Below, in pieces: positions 18,457 through 27,427 of a DNA stretch of 64,000 nt; the first letter of the stretch is position 1; the number at the start of each line of letters is the position of its first letter. The notes beneath the pieces are model-generated. The model was not told where the DNA came from. It ran no database searches and saw nothing but the letters and a program-made list of their open reading frames with translations. This DNA comes from Cyclobacterium xiamenense (GTDB taxonomy: Bacteria; Bacteroidota; Bacteroidia; Cytophagales; Cyclobacteriaceae). The position numbers and the translations under genes are program-made. The stretch is taken from contig NZ_WIOK01000008.1 of NCBI RefSeq assembly GCF_009467825.1, positions 62,001-126,000 on the forward strand. The letters are read 5' to 3'.

Positions 18457-20010
18457 ATGCAAAATTTCAAAATATTATGGGCAGATGATGAGATTGATCT
18501 GCTGAAACCCCATATTTTATTTTTACAGCAACGCGGCTACGATATTGTCACGGTAAACAGTGGTTTGGATGCGGTAGAGAAGGTTGAGGAGGAAAATTAC
18601 GATTTGGTATTTTTAGACGAAATGATGCCAGGCATGACCGGTTTGGAAACCTTGCAGCAGATCAAAAGCCTGAAACCACAAATTCCTGTGGTAATGATCA
18701 CCAAAAGTGAAGAGGAGCACATCATGGACGATGCGATTGGGGGCAAAATTGCCGACTACCTCATCAAACCTATCAACCCCAATCAGATTCTTTTGTCTGT
18801 CAAGAAGATTTTGCAGAACAAGCAACTGATCAGTGAAAAGACAAATCTATCGTATCAGCAAGACTTCCGGAATATCAGCATGGCGTATAACGATGCTATC
18901 GACCATGAGGAGTGGGCAGATATTTTCAAAAAATTGACTTATTGGGAATTGGAAATTGACGAAACCGAAAACAAAAGCATGCAGGAGGTTTTGGAATCGC
19001 AAAAAGTGGAGGCGAATGTTAATTTTGCCCGGTTTATCAAGGAGAATTACCTGGACTGGCTGAATATTCCCAACAGCAGCAAGCCGGTGCTTTCCCATCA
19101 GGTGATGAAGCAACACGTGTTTCCAAAATTGAAGGAAGGGAAACCTTTGTTTTTTATAGTCATCGATAATCTACGGCTGGACCAGTGGGAAATGATTGAA
19201 AATCAACTCCGTGACTATTTTACTGTAAAGGAAGACCTGACTTATTACAGCATTCTTCCAACGACTACGGCATTTTCCAGAAATGCCCTTTTTAGTGGAA
19301 TGATGCCTTTGGATATGGCCAAATCACATCCCGATCTTTGGGAAGGGGAGGAAACCGAGGAAGGCAAAAACAACAATGAGGAGGAATTTCTTAAAATAAA
19401 CCTGAAGAGAAACAGGCTATCAATCCGGTCTAGTTACCAGAAAATCCTGCAAACCAATCAGGGGAAAGCCGTGCTGGATCAGTTTCCCAATCTGATCAAA
19501 AACGATCTCAATGTATTGGTATACAACTTTGTAGATATGATGTCGCACGCCAGGACGGACATGAAAATGATCCGTGAGTTGGCACCGGACGAGTCGGCCT
19601 ACCGCTCACTCACCATCAGTTGGTTTTTGCATAGCTCCCTTTTTGAGCTGTTTAAAAAAATCAGTCAATCCGGCGCCGAGGTCATTGTCACGACCGATCA
19701 CGGCACCAAACGTGTCAATAAGCCCTATAAAATCATTGGTGACCGAAATGTGACCACAAATTTGCGGTACAAGCAGGGAAAAAACCTTAATTTTGAATCC
19801 GGGAAGGTTTTTGAAATCAAAAAGCCCGAAGAAGCCAGACTCCCGCAATTGAATATCTCATCCAGTTACGTATTCGCGGTGGAGGACTATTTCTTTGCTT
19901 ATCCCAACAATTACAACTATTACGTGAATTTTTACAAGGATACGTTTCAACACGGAGGGGTTTCACTCGAGGAGATGATTATTCCTATCGTTCATTTACA
20001 GCCAAAATAG
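18457..20010 (+). CDS. porX: PorX-type response regulator with PglZ domain
   Basis: 517 residues. Residues 1-120 are a REC domain with acidic pocket D10-D11, phospho-acceptor D54 in FLDEMMPG and the conserved Lys in YLIKP. A helical linker leads to a PglZ domain of the alkaline-phosphatase fold (about 200-510): FFIVIDNLRLDQW, the T-T-T-A-F-S-R-N nucleophile region, NFVDMMSHAR, VTTDHGT and Q-H-G-G-V-S-L-E-E. PorX works with the sensor PorY to control T9SS genes in Porphyromonas, and its PglZ domain is known as a metal-dependent phosphodiesterase acting on oligonucleotides. All expected acidic and His residues appear present. No porY is adjacent; tsaE follows on the same strand. Confidence 0.94.
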   Translation: MQNFKILWADDEIDLLKPHILFLQQRGYDIVTVNSGLDAVEKVEEENYDLVFLDEMMPGMTGLETLQQIKSLKPQIPVVMITKSEEEHIMDDAIGGKIADYLIKPINPNQILLSVKKILQNKQLISEKTNLSYQQDFRNISMAYNDAIDHEEWADIFKKLTYWELEIDETENKSMQEVLESQKVEANVNFARFIKENYLDWLNIPNSSKPVLSHQVMKQHVFPKLKEGKPLFFIVIDNLRLDQWEMIENQLRDYFTVKEDLTYYSILPTTTAFSRNALFSGMMPLDMAKSHPDLWEGEETEEGKNNNEEEFLKINLKRNRLSIRSSYQKILQTNQGKAVLDQFPNLIKNDLNVLVYNFVDMMSHARTDMKMIRELAPDESAYRSLTISWFLHSSLFELFKKISQSGAEVIVTTDHGTKRVNKPYKIIGDRNVTTNLRYKQGKNLNFESGKVFEIKKPEEARLPQLNISSSYVFAVEDYFFAYPNNYNYYVNFYKDTFQHGGVSLEEMIIPIVHLQPK

Positions 20011-21673: not shown

Positions 21674-22138
21674 TTAGGAAAGCAGATTTTGTCGAAGGAG
21701 AAATTCCAACTGGTCATTGGCCTTTAGCAGGCTATCCGTGAGTTGCTTGTTTTCTTTCCTCAGCGAGAATACTTCGAATGCATTTTTCACCACGGTTCGC
21801 AGGTAATCTTCCTCCCAGGGTTTGGTCAGGTAATGGTACACTTTACCTTTATTAATGGCATCGATCACGGCTTGTATATCGGTGTACCCCGTCAACAAAA
21901 TCCGCATAGGATCGGGATGCATGGGGATGATTGATTCCAAAAAGTCTACCCCGTTTTCCTTGGGCATCCGTTGGTCAGTAATGATGATGTCAATATCCTG
22001 CTGTAGTAATATATCTCTGCCCTCGTCTGCGGATTCTGCCAGAAAGATCTTATAGTCCCTTCTAAAGGTAGCCTTAAACGCCTTGAGATTATTCACCTCA
22101 TCATCCACATACAATATCCTGATCTTTTCTTTTTCCAT
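21674..22138 (-). CDS. Stand-alone REC response regulator with C-terminal coiled coil
   Basis: 154 residues. A single receiver domain has acidic pocket YVDDE (D12, D13), phospho-acceptor in IITDQRMP, T/S in LLTGYTD and K in YLTKPWEE. It is followed by a 30-residue helical tail (SLRKENKQLTDSLLKANDQLEFLLRQNLL) and no output domain. The motifs LLTGYTD and KPW are typical of receivers paired with HD-GYP or histidine kinase modules. It is a close relative of the receiver of the REC-kinase at 26339-27427 and faces away from the ThiF/GNAT/kinase operon across a 260-bp AT-rich region. It may take phosphate from the same sensor kinase. Confidence 0.88.
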   Translation of the reverse strand: MEKEKIRILYVDDEVNNLKAFKATFRRDYKIFLAESADEGRDILLQQDIDIIITDQRMPKENGVDFLESIIPMHPDPMRILLTGYTDIQAVIDAINKGKVYHYLTKPWEEDYLRTVVKNAFEVFSLRKENKQLTDSLLKANDQLEFLLRQNLLS

Positions 22139-22292
22139 GCCTTAAATATCGTAATTGCCCATTAATTTGTAAAGAATAAAAAATTGAATTTTTAATTTTA
22201 ATAAAATAACCGTTATTTTCAATTATTATTCATTAGTTTAATCGTAATTTATTTATATTCAAAAGTTTATTTTATAAATTAAGGAATTAAAC

Positions 22293-22300
22293 CAAAAATA
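22293..22300 (-). promoter_or_regulatory. Possible -7 box for the REC gene
   Basis: On the minus strand these bases read TATTTTTG, a match to TAnnTTTG. It lies about 155 nt upstream of the REC start in an AT-rich intergenic region. No TTG is found at the expected -33 distance, so support is partial. Confidence 0.3.
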
Positions 22301-22328
22301 CAAAAAAAAATATAATAAATTAATTCTG

Positions 22329-22336
22329 TATTTTTG
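22329..22336 (+). promoter_or_regulatory. Possible -7 box for the ThiF/GNAT/kinase operon
   Basis: TATTTTTG matches TAnnTTTG, about 64 nt before the ATG at 22400. It faces the minus-strand box 29 bp to its left, giving a divergent promoter pair between the operon and the REC gene. No clear -33 element is seen. Confidence 0.35.
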
Positions 22337-22399
22337 ATTGTTTATGATTACAAAAATATAACTTTACCAATATTATCACCTGTTTTAGTCATAAAAATT

Positions 22400-23512
22400 A
22401 TGGACAACTCAGCCAAAAAAAATGAGTTAGATCATGCATGGAAACCTGTCATCCTTTCTCCTAGAAACCAGGAGGATACAGATGTAGTAAAAAAATTGAA
22501 GGATACAGGTAAAGTAATGTTTTTTGATACATTTGAACTACAGTTGACAGAGTTGATCAAGGCGCGCAATCCGAAAAGAAATTTAAGTCTGGAGGAGTTG
22601 TCGGAAAAAAAGGCAGATTTTTTTTCAGCCTCCGGGAAGAGTTCGATGGAATCTGGTAACTGGGTATATTATCCATGGAGGAACACACTGGTTCGGATTC
22701 TGGAAGAAAACGAATTTGTGCAGTTACGAACGGTCAGAAACCGGTATAAAATCACCCAGGAAGAGCAGGAAAAGCTTCAAAATCAAGTAATTGGGGTGAT
22801 TGGACTTTCTGTAGGGCAGAGCGTTGCACTTTGTCTGGCGATGGAACGCTGTTTTGGCGAACTTCGGATTGCCGACTTTGACACCCTGGATTTGAGCAAC
22901 ATGAACCGCATTCGGACGGGTTTGTTTAATCTTGGGATTAAAAAATCCTGGATCGTGGCGCGTGAAATAGCAGAAATCGATCCCTACCTGAAGGTAACCT
23001 TGTTTAATGAGGGAGTGACCGAAAGCAACCTGGAGACGTTTTTTACCTGGGAGGGAAAAAAACTGGACGTTTTAATCGAGGAATGTGATAGTTTGCCAAT
23101 TAAATTACTTAGTAGAATTCAAGCCAAGGCCATGCGGATTCCCGTGATGATGGATACCAGCGATCGAGGCATGATGGACATAGAGCGATTTGACAGGGAG
23201 CCGGAAAGGCCTATTTTTCACGGGCTGTTAGAAGCGTTCGGCGAGGAAAAGAGCCTATTGGCAAAATTGCCTGAAAATGGGAAGGAGGTAATGATGGCGC
23301 TTTTGCAGTTTGAAAACCTATCTGATCGCGTAAAGTACAGTTTTTCTGAGCTTGGAAAATCCATTACTTCCTGGCCTCAACTGGCCTCATCTGTTATTTT
23401 GGGAGGCGCTGCCTGTTGCCATTATGCCAGGATGTTGCTTCTTGGGCGAGAGCTGGCCTCGGGAAGGTTTTATGTTGATTTGGACCATATAATCAATCTG
23501 AATGAAGGTTAG
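22400..23512 (+). CDS. ThiF/E1-like nucleotide-binding protein (Rv1355c-like N-terminal part)
   Basis: 370 residues from the ATG at 22400; a TTG at 22334 lies on the probable -7 box and is rejected. A 125-residue N-terminal region precedes a ThiF/E1 Rossmann domain: VIGVIGLSVGQS (about 130-141), the acidic strand ADFDTLDLSNMNRI (about 158-171), and L-I-E-E-C-D-S-L-P where E1 enzymes carry their conserved Asp. The segment MDTSDRGMMDIERFD recalls the Rv1355c family, in which a ThiF domain is joined to a nitroreductase; no nitroreductase is present here. CxxC zinc motifs of ThiF/MoeB and a catalytic Cys of E1 ligases are not seen. It may adenylate a carboxylate, substrate unknown. It overlaps the next gene by 11 nt. 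Confidence 0.75.
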   Translation: MDNSAKKNELDHAWKPVILSPRNQEDTDVVKKLKDTGKVMFFDTFELQLTELIKARNPKRNLSLEELSEKKADFFSASGKSSMESGNWVYYPWRNTLVRILEENEFVQLRTVRNRYKITQEEQEKLQNQVIGVIGLSVGQSVALCLAMERCFGELRIADFDTLDLSNMNRIRTGLFNLGIKKSWIVAREIAEIDPYLKVTLFNEGVTESNLETFFTWEGKKLDVLIEECDSLPIKLLSRIQAKAMRIPVMMDTSDRGMMDIERFDREPERPIFHGLLEAFGEEKSLLAKLPENGKEVMMALLQFENLSDRVKYSFSELGKSITSWPQLASSVILGGAACCHYARMLLLGRELASGRFYVDLDHIINLNEG

Positions 23513-24203
23513 AGTTAGGATCGTCAGGGCTATAGATGACATTGAAGCCACCGAGAAATACATTTTTGGTCACCATAAGGTGTTAGAATCTTATGGCATT
23601 ACCAAGGTAACATCTGCAGACCGCTCCTGGGCGTTGAATCCGCATGTCTATTTGATCTTGTTTGAGTCCATGGAGGATTTACGGATTTTGGGTGGAGGAA
23701 GAATCCAGTTGCGAACGGAAAATTTCCCGTTGCCATTTGAGTTAGCGATCAAAGAAATTGATCCCAAAATCATGGATTACCTGTCGGTCTTTAAGGATCT
23801 GGAGGTGGCAGAATATTGCGGCCTGTGGAATAGCCGAGAAGTAGCGGGTTATGGTATCGGTAGCATTTACCTGGTACGGGTGGGTATAGCCATCTTGCCC
23901 CAGTTAAATCTCAAAAAATTATTTGGTTTGAGTTCACCGGTTACCTTGAGTATTTCCAAAAGCGTTGGTTACGAGGTCATTTCCATGCTGGGGGACAACG
24001 GCTCTTTTTATTACCCCAAAGAGGGCTTGATTGCCACTGCACTGGAAATCAACGATATCAATGAGCTTTCTCATGCACAAGATACCGAGCGATCGTATAT
24101 TTTTGATTTGAGAAAGAAAATAAACTTCAATACGATTGAAAGCGGACCAAAAGGGGAAATGGAACTGCAGTTTGAACTTCAAATACCTAAGCCTGATAAA
24201 TGA
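23502..24203 (+). CDS. Putative GNAT-fold acyltransferase, LuxI/FeeM-like (tentative)
   Basis: 233 residues, no signal peptide. The predicted pattern is that of GNAT/autoinducer-synthase-like proteins: a strand NPHVYLILFES, a basic strand GGGRIQLRTENFPLPFE resembling the substrate-pocket strand of LuxI and FeeM, then VAEYCGLWNSREV followed by a long strand and helix (IYLVRVGIAILPQLNLKKLF), and a Y-E-V-I helix near 180. LuxI/FeeM enzymes move acyl groups from acyl-ACP to an amino compound. The match is by pattern only and several LuxI invariant residues cannot be placed. Its start overlaps the ThiF-like gene by 11 nt and its stop overlaps the sensor kinase gene by 4 nt, so the three are translated in concert. 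Confidence 0.5.
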   Translation: MKVRVRIVRAIDDIEATEKYIFGHHKVLESYGITKVTSADRSWALNPHVYLILFESMEDLRILGGGRIQLRTENFPLPFELAIKEIDPKIMDYLSVFKDLEVAEYCGLWNSREVAGYGIGSIYLVRVGIAILPQLNLKKLFGLSSPVTLSISKSVGYEVISMLGDNGSFYYPKEGLIATALEINDINELSHAQDTERSYIFDLRKKINFNTIESGPKGEMELQFELQIPKPDK

Positions 24204-26332
24204 AAAACCTGTACAATTACCTGAGGAGCATTGGACTCTCCTTGTTTTTGATTCTTTTTGTCACTGTTCCGATCATTTATTACCTGGGGGTCTTTAGTCA
24301 GGATGAGGGCATGCGTTTTGAAAGCTTCTCCTATTTTACTTCGGAGGAGGCTATTCCCTACGATCCGCTCGATATGGAGTTGTTCACCCAGAATGCAACC
24401 CAAAAACTTGATCTCGGCGTGGTGACTGAAAACGTATATCTAAAGCTGGATTTAAATGATGTGGATGGTATCTTGCGCGATAGCCTCTACATTATTGAAC
24501 TGAGCAACCCCTCGTTTCGAGAGGTAGAGTTGGTGCGGCTAGATAGCAATGGAAACCTCGCGTTTACGGAAAGCGCCGGAACGTTATTTTCAGGCTCCAA
24601 CCCCCTTAAGAACCCCAACCCATTTTTTGAAATCAAGCATACCGAAGCACTCAGTCCCCAGTTTGTCTTTCGAATTCGAGCCAATGTTCCGGTAGAATTT
24701 GATGTAGCAATTTCACCGGAGAGCTCGTTTTTTCAAAATTACAGTCTGCGGTTAATCATCATCAGTACCTATTTTGGAATAATGATTGCCTTGTTTCTGT
24801 ACAATCTTATTCTTTATTTTTCGGTCAAAGACAAGGTCTATCTCTACTATTGTTTCTATATCCTGTTTATTGCCATGGCACAACTATCCCTTTCGGGGTA
24901 CTCGTATTTTTTTCTATTCGAGGACGCATTTCTTTACGAAATCAGTATCATCGGTTTTACTACCGTATCCAGTATTTTTGTGATTCCATTTATTCAGCTG
25001 TTCCTAAAAACAGACGTCTATGTACCCAAATACGATAAGCTGCTGTATTTAATCCCCGCGGCATATATTATCACGTTGGTTTTCAGAATGCTGGGTTACG
25101 TGGCGTTGAGCTATTCCCTGACAAATTTAAATGGACTGATTTTAGCCGTATGTTTTTTTAGCATCGGTATAGTGGCAGCAAGGAAGGGATACCGATCCGC
25201 CTATTTCTTTTTGCTGGCCTGGAGTTTTCTGCTTTTTGGCCTGGTAGTATTTATTATGCATAACCTCCGCATCATCGACCTGGGTTCTTATGCCAATTTC
25301 CCGCTTTTGGCCGGAACGGCCATCGAGGCGTTGCTGCTTTCCTTTGCCCTGGCAGATAAGATCAACATCTTAAAAAAGGAAAAGGAACACGAGCAATTGG
25401 ATAAATTGGAGGCACTCAAGGAAAATGAACGCCTGATAAAAGAGCAAAACCTTTACTTGGAGGAAATGGTCAAGTCCAGAACAGAGGAGTTGGAAATGAC
25501 ATTAAAAAACCTCCAAAACACACAAACTCAGTTGGTAAACCAGGAAAAAATGGCTTCTCTCGGTCAGCTAACTGCGGGGATTGCACATGAAATCAATAAT
25601 CCAATCAATTTTGTGAGTTCGAACATTTCTCCGCTAAAACGAGATTTGAAGGATATTTTGGAGTTGATGGAGATTTACCGGGAGAAAGGAAAGGAAGAGT
25701 TTAACGAGGAAAGTAAGTCGGAAATCGAAGAGATGGAAGAGGACATCGAACTCGATTACTTGATCGAAGAAGTAGAGCAATTACTCAACGGAATGGAAGA
25801 CGGCGCCAAACGGACCGTTGAAATAGTCCGTGGGCTAAAATTGTTTTCCAGGGTGGACGAGCAGGATGTTAAACAGGTTGACTTACACGACGGATTGGAT
25901 AGTACGTTGATCCTATTGAACAGCAACATGTCAGGGAAAATAAAGCTGACAAAGAACTATGGATCCATACCTCAGGTAGAGTGTCTGGCAGGCAAAATCA
26001 ATCAGGTATTTATGAATATTATCAGCAACGCAATTCATGCGCTGTTGGATCATCCCGTGGAGGGGAGGGAACCCGAGCTTACCATCGGTACTGCTTTGGA
26101 AAATGGCCGGGTAATCATCAAAATTCAAGATAACGGTCCGGGAATGCCCCCCCATGTACGGGATAAGATTTTCGAACCTTTCTTTACTACCAAAGCAGTT
26201 GGAAAAGGTACCGGATTGGGACTTTCCATCGTATACACAATTATTGAAAACCATAAGGGTACTATTAAAGTTGAGTCAGAAGAACAAGTAGGAACTATTT
26301 TTATTATTGATCTGCCGATCAATCAAAATTAA
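24200..26332 (+). CDS. 7TM (7TMR-DISM) sensor histidine kinase
   Basis: 710 residues. A first membrane segment (about 10-30) precedes an extracytoplasmic domain (about 40-170) of the 7TMR-DISM extracellular type. Seven membrane helices follow (about 178-385) and a signalling coiled coil (390-450). The kinase core has H463 in GQLTAGIAHEINNPINF, an acidic insertion (EEFNEESKSEIEEMEEDIE) between the dimerisation helices, N-box NQVFMNIISNAIHAL, G1 DNGPGM and G2 GKGTGLGLS. DISM receptors sense small extracellular ligands, often carbohydrates or lipids. It is translationally coupled to the GNAT-like gene and is 6 bp from the REC-kinase. It may sense a product of the first two genes, or control them; neither is shown by sequence. 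Confidence 0.88.
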   Translation: MKNLYNYLRSIGLSLFLILFVTVPIIYYLGVFSQDEGMRFESFSYFTSEEAIPYDPLDMELFTQNATQKLDLGVVTENVYLKLDLNDVDGILRDSLYIIELSNPSFREVELVRLDSNGNLAFTESAGTLFSGSNPLKNPNPFFEIKHTEALSPQFVFRIRANVPVEFDVAISPESSFFQNYSLRLIIISTYFGIMIALFLYNLILYFSVKDKVYLYYCFYILFIAMAQLSLSGYSYFFLFEDAFLYEISIIGFTTVSSIFVIPFIQLFLKTDVYVPKYDKLLYLIPAAYIITLVFRMLGYVALSYSLTNLNGLILAVCFFSIGIVAARKGYRSAYFFLLAWSFLLFGLVVFIMHNLRIIDLGSYANFPLLAGTAIEALLLSFALADKINILKKEKEHEQLDKLEALKENERLIKEQNLYLEEMVKSRTEELEMTLKNLQNTQTQLVNQEKMASLGQLTAGIAHEINNPINFVSSNISPLKRDLKDILELMEIYREKGKEEFNEESKSEIEEMEEDIELDYLIEEVEQLLNGMEDGAKRTVEIVRGLKLFSRVDEQDVKQVDLHDGLDSTLILLNSNMSGKIKLTKNYGSIPQVECLAGKINQVFMNIISNAIHALLDHPVEGREPELTIGTALENGRVIIKIQDNGPGMPPHVRDKIFEPFFTTKAVGKGTGLGLSIVYTIIENHKGTIKVESEEQVGTIFIIDLPINQN

Positions 26333-26338
26333 CAGCTA

Positions 26339-27427
26339 ATGGCAAAAAAAATCAATGTGCTGTACATTGATGACGAAGATAATAATCTGAGTTCATTCAA
26401 GGCAGCATTGAGGAGGGAGTTTAAAGTCTATACGGCATTGGATGCCGAAGAAGGACTGGAACTAGCCAGGACCAAGGAATTTGAGGTGGTGATTGCCGAT
26501 CAGCGGATGCCAGGCCTGACCGGCGTGGAATTTTTTGAAAAACTTGTGGAGGTCAATCCCAACCCCATTCGCATATTACTTACCGGGTATTCCGACATTG
26601 CCAGCGTGATTGATGCCATCAACCGTGGTGAGGTGTACCGGTTTATAGACAAACCCTGGAACCTGGAGCAGATAAAAAATGCCATTATCAATGCCTCTGA
26701 AATCTACTATGCACGAAAGGAGCTAAAGGAGAAAAACGAACGATTGGAGAAACTGCACACGGAAATGAATCAGTTTGTGTACAGCCTCTCCCACGAATTG
26801 AGAGGGCCACTCATGAGTATCTCCGGAATCTCAAAGCTGGCGAAAACCGAAGTTCTCGAACCGGGGATCATTGAATATTTTGAAATGATCGACTCCGCTA
26901 CGTTGAAATTGGACGATTTTATTTACAAAATGCTGGACTTTTACCGGTCTACCAAAATTGAGAACAAAGTCGTCCCCATTAATTTTGAAGACATCATGGG
27001 CCAATTGGTGGACGAATACAACCTGAAATGGGATTTGAGTCGCCTTGATACAAAACTTGAAATCGAACAGGAGGGTGTGTTTTACTCGGACGAATCCAAA
27101 ATTCGCGTGATTATCAACAATCTATTTAGTAATGCCTACAAGTTTCAAAAAGAAAGCGGATCCGGCTGGATCTGTATCCGGATAAAGGTAAGGGTAGGTA
27201 ACGCTTTTCTAGAGGTCTCGGACAATGGCATAGGCATAGAAGAAAAGCACCAAACGGATGTATTTAATCTTTTTCATCGTGCCACCCAACGAAACGTTGG
27301 GTCAGGATTGGGTTTGTACATGGTGAAAGAATCCGTGGAGCAATTAAAGGGTACCGTGCAGCTTTCTTCGGAAGTAGGCAAAGGCACCGTGATTCGGGTA
27401 GATTTGCCCAGCCTTGAAACCTCTTGA
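26339..27427 (+). CDS. REC-histidine kinase hybrid (receiver first)
   Basis: 362 residues, soluble. A receiver (1-125) has D11-D12, phospho-acceptor D54 in VIADQRMPG and K in FIDKPW. A short coiled coil leads to HisKA with H152 in SLSHELRGPL, and an ATPase domain with N-box IINNLFSNAYKF, DNGIGI and GSGLGLYMV. A receiver upstream of a kinase suggests a relay: phosphate from the 7TM kinase gates the second kinase, whose target is not encoded here unless it is the REC protein at 21674-22138. It ends the operon; no DNA-binding output domain is present anywhere in the island. Confidence 0.9.
   Translation: MAKKINVLYIDDEDNNLSSFKAALRREFKVYTALDAEEGLELARTKEFEVVIADQRMPGLTGVEFFEKLVEVNPNPIRILLTGYSDIASVIDAINRGEVYRFIDKPWNLEQIKNAIINASEIYYARKELKEKNERLEKLHTEMNQFVYSLSHELRGPLMSISGISKLAKTEVLEPGIIEYFEMIDSATLKLDDFIYKMLDFYRSTKIENKVVPINFEDIMGQLVDEYNLKWDLSRLDTKLEIEQEGVFYSDESKIRVIINNLFSNAYKFQKESGSGWICIRIKVRVGNAFLEVSDNGIGIEEKHQTDVFNLFHRATQRNVGSGLGLYMVKESVEQLKGTVQLSSEVGKGTVIRVDLPSLETS

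Follow-up and report, generated by a model that had tools for sequence, protein, structure and literature searches.

A predicted N-acyl amino acid synthase that appears to be exchanged together with the input half of its neighbouring receptor kinase: a candidate signalling unit of Bacteroidota

What could be the role of an operon in which two enzymes of apparent small-molecule chemistry are followed, almost without interruption, by two histidine kinases? Such an operon lies in a stretch of 64,000 nucleotides from Cyclobacterium xiamenense (contig NZ_WIOK01000008.1, positions 62,001 to 126,000; hereafter the window, to which all positions refer), in a genome of 5.78 Mb that is 99.99% complete. 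Open reading frames (ORFs) and junction sequences confirm four genes on the plus strand (Table 1): a ThiF-like protein (gene 1), a predicted acyltransferase (gene 2, hereafter AT), a 7TMR-DISM histidine kinase with a seven-transmembrane (7TM) region (gene 3) and a receiver-kinase (gene 4). The ThiF-like and AT genes overlap by 11 nt, AT and the 7TM kinase by 4 nt, and a gap of 6 bp separates the two kinases, exactly as described in an earlier account made from the letters alone (the sequence-only reading), whose assignment of genes 3 and 4 to these kinase types also agrees with Pfam. We think it likely, if by no means settled, that we are dealing with a self-contained autoinducer system, in which a secreted N-acyl amino acid or oxazolone would be sensed by the co-encoded kinase. 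What leads us there is that close relatives have, as far as their sequences tell, swapped the gene predicted to make the signal along with the half of the receptor that would sense it, a behaviour known from bacterial communication systems.

The exchange can be followed in a set of 82 loci (80 named loci minus L115, L130, L149 and L151, plus L152-L156 and the window), 64 of which are syntenic in having both the PorX and the AlaDH flanks. Across these 64 loci the identity of AT correlates with that of the 7TM region at 0.94, and still at 0.92 as a partial correlation given flank identity; the corresponding values are 0.81 for AT and the extracytoplasmic sensor domain and 0.65 for ThiF and AT. 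The kinase core follows neither AT (-0.01) nor the 7TM region (0.04), despite being part of the same polypeptide as the latter, and goes with the receiver-kinase (0.80). The same is seen pair by pair, in a table that covers the 1515 of 2016 pairs with a flank identity of at least 75%. Among the 74 pairs with flanks at least 92% identical, AT and the 7TM region have both fallen below 50% identity in 22 and only one of them in none, and in the closest pairs the kinase core and the flanks remain similar; for the 95 pairs at 85-92% the counts are 55 and 0.

Two examples illustrate how sharp the exchange can be. Between E. shivajiensis and E. salinicaeni the kinase core is 90% identical, and the flanks and receivers even more so (95-98% and 94-97%), against 68% for ThiF, 42% for AT, 36% for the 7TM region and 15% for the sensor; the AT and 7TM region of E. 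shivajiensis share 54-61% with those of distant Aquiflexum/Algoriphagus loci (L108, L107, L122). Between A. marincola and A. formosus, PorX and AlaDH are 100% identical and the kinase core 99%, against 46% for AT, 21% for the sensor and 41% for the 7TM region. At the DNA level this second pair aligns at 93-100% up to the start of AT, at 42-56% between there and a point near the end of the 7TM region, and at 90-100% beyond it, with 88% in the alignment window that spans the left border. Two further pairs have the same borders, and in Echinicola the left border lies inside ThiF. Approximately unbiased (AU) tests reject keeping species groups together in five of five cases in the AT tree and in five of five in the 7TM tree, whereas in the kinase-core tree four of the five groups stand together, two of them with support of 90-91, below the mark of the tool, and the fifth is not rejected; the groups were picked after inspection of the identity tables, so that the p-values should not be read as those of a hypothesis set beforehand. 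An enzyme and a receptor input half that are polymorphic together, over a conserved kinase core, make up the pherotype pattern of comQXPA, and judged from these alignments that is the pattern of this locus.

What would the exchanged enzymes make? Gene 1 (370 aa from its ATG, a TTG start at 22334 being possible), whose nearest named relatives are those of Cyclobacterium species, matches the Pfam family ThiF at 2.9e-15 and, far more strongly, the NCBIfam family NF005901 ('Rv1355c family') at an E-value of 2.1e-133. This second match, which answers a comparison proposed in the sequence-only reading, is restricted to positions 3-340 of a profile of 722 and scores 446 bits, under the curated cut-off of 476: the ThiF-like domain with its conserved Asp is there, and the fused flavin-dependent oxidase (FDO) half is not. 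Rv1355c is TrzS, in which a ThiF-like cyclase and an FDO cyclise and then desaturate the N-acyl tryptophan supplied by TrzA (PMC12856293). Gene 1, left without a kind by the sequence-only reading, is therefore by its alignment to TrzS relatives the cyclase half of the Rv1355c/TrzS oxazolone family minus the FDO half. The Asp of its ECD motif (Asp230) is invariant across a 19-row alignment of gene 1, and is kept in a 14-row alignment that includes two actinobacterial TrzS relatives, two rows having VCD in place of ECD. It is probably the equivalent of D217 of TrzS, to which an ATP-site role is ascribed (PMC12856293), as judged from conservation in these two alignments and not from the M. smegmatis sequence itself.

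Gene 2 matches no Pfam or NCBIfam family above cut-off, and no autoinducer-synthase family at E-values up to 1. Its fold is more telling. The AlphaFold2 model, built on an alignment of 36 sequences, has a pLDDT of 90.7, and the top ranks of a Foldseek search of the PDB are BjaI, MesI and FeeM (twice), with E 1.9e-7 for 5w8a. FeeM has the highest TM-scores among the 50 matches listed, up to 0.63 by query and 0.78 by target (2g0b). As modelled, AT is a FeeM/LuxI-type GNAT, so that the sequence-only reading, which had seen a GNAT/autoinducer-synthase-like pattern, was right at the level of the fold, and we predict it to be an N-acyl amino acid synthase. This would place a FeeM-fold N-acyltransferase next to the cyclase, as in the oxazolone pathways; TyzA of one such pathway is structurally nearest to FeeM and BjaI (PMC10404671), and ThiF and nitroreductase genes adjoin N-acyl tyrosine synthases in other bacteria (PMC12479983).

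The receptor class goes with the presence or absence of the FDO half as well. A fused FDO is present in 8 of the 31 loci of the family and in 32 of the set of 82, and a ThiF tree of 85 rows implies at least seven changes of FDO state. This state is uniform in 25 of the 26 multi-member classes that the 7TM region forms at 60% identity; kinase-core classes mix it in 3-4 of 17-23, depending on the threshold. Once a truncated kinase (L254) and near-identical 7TM rows are dropped (180 to 172 rows), the nearest neighbour agrees in FDO state in 167/172 cases by the 7TM region and in 151/172 by the kinase core. Furthermore, among 292 pairs with kinase cores at least 85% identical, the 41 that differ in FDO state all have 7TM regions below 60%.

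Gene 3 combines 7TMR-DISM_7TM (PF07695; 3.6e-37, 128.7 bits against a cut-off of 29 bits) with HisKA and HATPase_c (1.2e-24), and its H-box motif H[ED][IL]NNP is found in 82/82 loci; gene 4 combines Response_reg (2.2e-18) with HisKA/HATPase_c. A model of residues 1-400 of gene 3 (pLDDT 86) shows a beta-sandwich and a 7TM bundle, for which the periplasmic domain of RetS (3jyb) is the second-ranked Foldseek match (E 8.5e-6, TM-score by target 0.67). The first-ranked one is human WLS, the 7TM carrier of lipidated Wnt, a weak match since its TM-score is only ~0.35. The free receiver encoded divergently from the operon has a DQRMP motif in 76/76 cases; several other motif patterns were too strict for use (for example, 26/82 for the N-box and 66/77 for the H-box of the receiver-kinase).

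From these elements a working scheme can be drawn. AT would join an acyl group, from acyl-CoA or an acyl carrier protein (ACP), to an amino acid, as its fold and the cases of TrzA and TyzA suggest, and the ThiF protein would adenylate the carboxylate and cyclise the product to an oxazolone, as TrzS does; this chemistry we infer by analogy. As the FDO half is absent in the lineage of the window, the product there would stay saturated or reopen to the N-acyl amino acid. It would then leave the cell and be read by the beta-sandwich and 7TM half of the co-encoded kinase, as the co-exchange suggests, and the kinase would control the flow of phosphate to the free receiver and the receiver-kinase, as their domains suggest. 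Alternative versions of AT (and of the cyclase/FDO) would be matched to alternative receptor input halves and exchanged between species as a cassette, giving rise to pherotype-like specificity groups. The sequence-only reading had imagined a unit that makes an acyl-amino or adenylated molecule and senses it. That it makes and senses an acyl-amino molecule gains support from the exchange of the synthase gene along with the receptor input half. With gene 1 assigned to the TrzS/Rv1355c family as its cyclase half, a cyclised N-acyl amino acid becomes likelier than an adenylated product, and direct sensing is what the co-exchange points to.

Alternatively, the operon could be biosynthetic, making an N-acyl amino acid or oxazolone lipid for the membrane or for defence, with kinases that sense stress or the state of the envelope and control production, and with no receptor for the product. 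We regard this as rather improbable, although of the alternatives it survives best. The RetS-like fold of the sensor is also found in kinases with other inputs, and the locus has no DNA-binding output that would point at quorum control. Moreover, related N-acyl tyrosines have been described as antimicrobial and oxazolones discussed as stress-linked (PMC12856293). A lipid operon, however, predicts neither that the receptor input half should be exchanged with the synthase genes while the kinase core is left behind, nor that the receptor class should be related to the FDO state.

The co-exchange itself could also be due to physical linkage only: an outside driver, such as a phage that uses the exposed part of the 7TM protein, would diversify the receptor, and the synthase would hitchhike. 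AT (or ThiF) does lie directly before the kinase gene. Three other genera (g89, g101 and g103) bear on this possibility, in a replication with receiver-kinase identity as the control and 83 loci: 80 of 100 further loci (these being 80 of 134 Sphingobacteriaceae-type and 20 of 55 Chitinophagaceae-type matches) plus five earlier ones, minus those without AT, kinase or receiver-kinase and with the 20 Chitinophagaceae-type loci left out. Tracking of the 7TM region by AT was recovered in two of the three. The partial correlation is 0.92 in the 26 loci of g89, in which AT and the kinase are separated by ThiF, and 0.87 in the 39 loci of g101; in the latter genus, the kinase core follows AT (0.53) and the 7TM region (0.59) as well. 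For g103 (18 Mucilaginibacter-like loci in the order AT-ThiF-kinase) it is 0.03, and there it is ThiF, the gene nearest to the receptor, that follows the 7TM region (0.59). This contrast indicates that lineages differ in which part of the synthase tracks the receptor, and that physical linkage contributes; indeed, since AT adjoins the receptor input half in the gene order of the window, one recombination tract carries both and linkage alone explains part of the correlation. Several findings speak against linkage alone: the tie to AT is closer for the 7TM region than for the exposed sensor (0.92 versus 0.81), AT itself is split into deep classes, AT tracks the 7TM region across an intervening ThiF gene in g89, and the receptor class tracks the FDO state. 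As a full explanation we find linkage distinctly unlikely.

It is very improbable, in our judgement, that gene 1 is instead an E1-like protein-conjugation enzyme or belongs to an anti-phage system with an acyltransferase partner. PADLOC E1-E2 profiles do match it weakly (best 2.2e-7), over residues 95-203, its nucleotide-binding part, only; the other three operon proteins match none of these models, no E2, JAB or ubiquitin-like gene is seen in the unit, the match to NF005901 is far stronger, and the partner AT is of FeeM fold. We rejected on these grounds a defence system and, with no partner genes seen in the unit, a protein-conjugating E1. Nor does gene 1 have the marks of an E1 of the MoeB/ThiF type for sulfur carriers: its sequence has no zinc CxxC motif, as the sequence-only reading had noticed together with the E1/ThiF nucleotide-binding site, and a Pfam scan of eight neighbouring proteins gave no match to a ThiS/MoaD carrier partner.

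A mere chance neighbourhood, for which no support was found, has next to no probability left, the unit being conserved across orders of Bacteroidota, with either gene order and in genomic contexts that are unrelated to each other. Gene 1 occurs in 32 of the 148 genomes of a family sample, with AT and the 7TM kinase beside it in 31 of the 32; in these 31 loci, window included, the receiver-kinase is beside the unit in 27 and the free-receiver ortholog beside the ThiF gene in all. A sample of 395 genomes from the whole phylum gave gene 1 (E up to 1e-30) in 11, with AT and the 7TM kinase adjacent in 11/11, one of them at a contig edge. It is from these two samples that we conclude that the arrangement is not due to chance. 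The 80 named loci, the best among the matches listed, have AT adjacent in 78 and the 7TM kinase in 77, two of the misses (L115, L151) being contig ends. At E-values up to 1e-60, gene 1 was found in 134 of 351 genomes of a Sphingobacteriaceae-type family and in 55 of 294 of a Chitinophagaceae-type family, and the 100 further loci have the 7TM kinase adjacent in 100, AT in 99, the receiver-kinase in 98 and the free receiver in 91; some genomes figure in more than one of these collections (named loci, family survey, later sets). Since flanks vary by order and AT sits on either side of ThiF, inherited synteny alone does not account for the unit. The co-occurrence in other genomes that the sequence-only reading had proposed to survey is near-constant; with this and with the GNAT fold of gene 2, neither of the two outcomes that it had named as refuting came about.

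Several observations, besides those on g101 and g103, count against the autoinducer reading. The coupling is looser at a distance: among the 1346 pairs with a flank identity of 75-85%, AT and the 7TM region are both below 50% in 746, AT only in 5 and the 7TM region only in 114. AT also tracks the free receiver weakly in the 64 loci (0.20, p 0.0005, by permutations that ignore tree structure), and one 7TM class (L155, L211, L217) is of mixed FDO state. No FDO of the TrzS type was found elsewhere in the genome of the window (best E 0.37; other flavin oxidase families were outside the search), and we therefore rejected the idea that one is supplied from elsewhere; with none fused and none of this type found elsewhere, the final product in this lineage is uncertain. 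Saturated oxazolones are, besides, easily hydrolysed. General GNATs come close behind the FeeM group in the fold search, from E 2e-6, so that the fold alone is no proof of the reaction of AT. Pfam finds only REC and REC-HisKA-HATPase_c as outputs of the locus and nothing that binds DNA, as had already been remarked from the letters. There are also incomplete sets. In one family genome (G059, L062:7954-9060) the 18 kb around a gene 1 relative of 39% identity contain no match to AT or to the kinase, and in L130, the remaining miss among the named loci, a ThiF-FDO gene is split into two ORFs, with no AT or 7TM kinase found nearby. At least three family genomes (L063, L064, L065) have the kinase pair between the same flanks without ThiF or AT; outside each other, their 7TM regions are nearest to FDO-type receptors (46-58%), and they are possibly listeners that stopped making the signal. 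The number of such receptor-only genomes is a lower bound, the kinase searches having scored only 7 and 13 candidates per genome. Lastly, the three actinobacterial plasmid relatives examined, of 13 found, have no directly adjacent kinase, although on one plasmid, from Streptomyces, a sensor-domain protein and a response regulator are encoded ~5 kb downstream.

Table 1. Positions of the signalling unit and of its parts in the window
Feature	Position	Strand	Basis
Single-domain receiver (REC, 154 aa), divergent from operon	21674..22138	-	Pfam Response_reg 6.1e-19
AT-rich intergenic region between divergent REC and operon	22139..22399		position only
ThiF-like oxazolone cyclase (predicted), N-terminal half of TrzS/Rv1355c, without FDO half	22400..23512	+	NF005901, ThiF Pfam, alignment with TrzS relatives
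Asp230 of ECD motif, likely TrzS Asp217 equivalent (ATP site)	23087..23089	+	conservation; equivalence inferred
FeeM/LuxI-type GNAT, predicted N-acyl amino acid synthase (AT)	23502..24203	+	AlphaFold2 model, Foldseek
7TMR-DISM receptor histidine kinase	24200..26332	+	Pfam; H[ED][IL]NNP motif
Extracytoplasmic beta-sandwich sensor domain, kinase residues 37-175, hypervariable, co-exchanged with AT	24308..24724	+	model, Foldseek, identity correlations
Kinase 7TM region, residues 180-395, co-exchanged with AT	24737..25384	+	PF07695 3.6e-37; partial r 0.92
Kinase core, residues 440-708, not co-exchanged	25517..26323	+	Pfam; partial r with AT -0.01
Receiver-histidine kinase (REC-HisKA-HATPase_c)	26339..27427	+	Pfam; neighbourhood counts

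A frame of four genes is slightly too narrow: we count the divergent receiver as a fifth member of the unit because its orthologs accompany the set into unrelated genomic surroundings. The intergenic region between the two is, from its position, probably the control region; scans for promoters (by consensus, this region included) and for terminators gave no excess over shuffled sequences. Upstream, a PorX-like protein with REC and PglZ domains (18457-20010) is kept near the unit in 30 fetched family loci. Outside Cyclobacteriaceae, the receiver-kinase of L112, L125, L134-L137, L143, L145 and L154-L156 is followed by one more single-domain receiver, of ~131-162 aa. On a Streptomyces plasmid (L162), a stand-alone ThiF protein without FDO overlaps a GNAT gene, with no kinase directly beside the pair; this is a second version that lacks FDO, in a phylum other than Bacteroidota. 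Finally, in five loci (L066-L070, in G104, G140, G127, G092 and G002) distant relatives of AT, at 28-32% identity, are found close to a histidine kinase and to an ORF that resembles FAD-linked oxidases, with FAD_binding_4 in the one oxidase of five run through Pfam and PAS kinases in the four of five run. They possibly represent a second, kinase-linked type of N-acyl amino acid unit; as a different unit, they were not taken as support for the present one.

Many Bacteroidota, then, appear to carry a gene set that makes and senses a fatty-acid-linked amino acid signal. We would go further, with somewhat less assurance, and favour the view that this is a new autoinducer family of the phylum, in which N-acyl amino acids or oxazolones would be signals peculiar to a species or strain, with 7TMR-DISM kinases as their readers, their specificity being swapped by recombination of a synthase-plus-receptor cassette. 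To our knowledge no native small-molecule communication system has been well characterised in Bacteroidota, and this would be a candidate for one, as well as a candidate ligand class for 7TMR-DISM kinases. If true, it would also give oxazolones a physiological function, turning the question of the role of a lipid into that of a testable pairing of signal and receptor. The group that described the tryptazolone pathway calls the role of bacterial oxazolones a major unresolved question, and a signalling role has been suggested for the pathway from its c-di-GMP gene neighbours (PMC12856293).

How does the unit compare with known systems? The mycobacterial pair TrzA-TrzS (Rv1356c-Rv1355c) turns N-acyl amino acids into oxazolones, with acyl-tryptophan mainly in the supernatant and tryptazolone in the cells (PMC12856293). 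With this pathway and with TyzACB and OxzAB (PMC12856293, PMC10404671) our unit shares a ThiF cyclase of the same family, an adjacent FeeM-fold N-acyltransferase and, in many Bacteroidota copies, the fused FDO. Unlike them, it includes a 7TMR-DISM kinase, a receiver-kinase and a free receiver, and the lineage of the window lacks the FDO. The sequence-only reading knew of no described system with this set. The enzyme pair is known from TrzA-TrzS; as for the coupling, none of the titles and abstracts listed in searches of the open-licence PMC literature links an AT/cyclase pair to a kinase, and the main text of PMC12856293 has 0 occurrences of the word 'kinase'. From LuxI-type enzymes and FeeM, whose fold gene 2 shares (BjaI, MesI and FeeM being best), the unit differs in having no autoinducer-synthase family match and a cyclase gene always near; from 7TMR-DISM kinases such as RetS, which have the same sensor fold (3jyb) and 7TM family, it differs in placing the kinase in an operon with synthase genes and in swapping its input half as a cassette.

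As quorum-sensing loci do, this one encodes an enzyme, its role being predicted from homology, and a receptor kinase side by side. In CqsA/CqsS, LqsA/LqsS and PhcB/PhcS, too, an enzyme makes a small-molecule signal and a membrane histidine kinase is encoded nearby, although the enzymes, the chemistry, the receptor class and the phylum are others. CqsS is a described quorum-sensing kinase (PMC8895600). As far as our literature searches reach, the enzymes of the unit are known, and what appears to be new is that they are coupled to a receptor kinase and show a pherotype pattern. The parallel with comQXPA of Bacillus is one of organization and of polymorphism. ComQXPA has a peptide signal and a DNA-binding response regulator, whereas here no peptide gene is seen; but in both an operon joins a signal-modifying enzyme to a receptor kinase, and in both, as in ComP with its variable N-terminal and conserved cytoplasmic halves, the membrane half of the receptor varies and specificity groups result or, in our case, would be expected to (PMC4008528).

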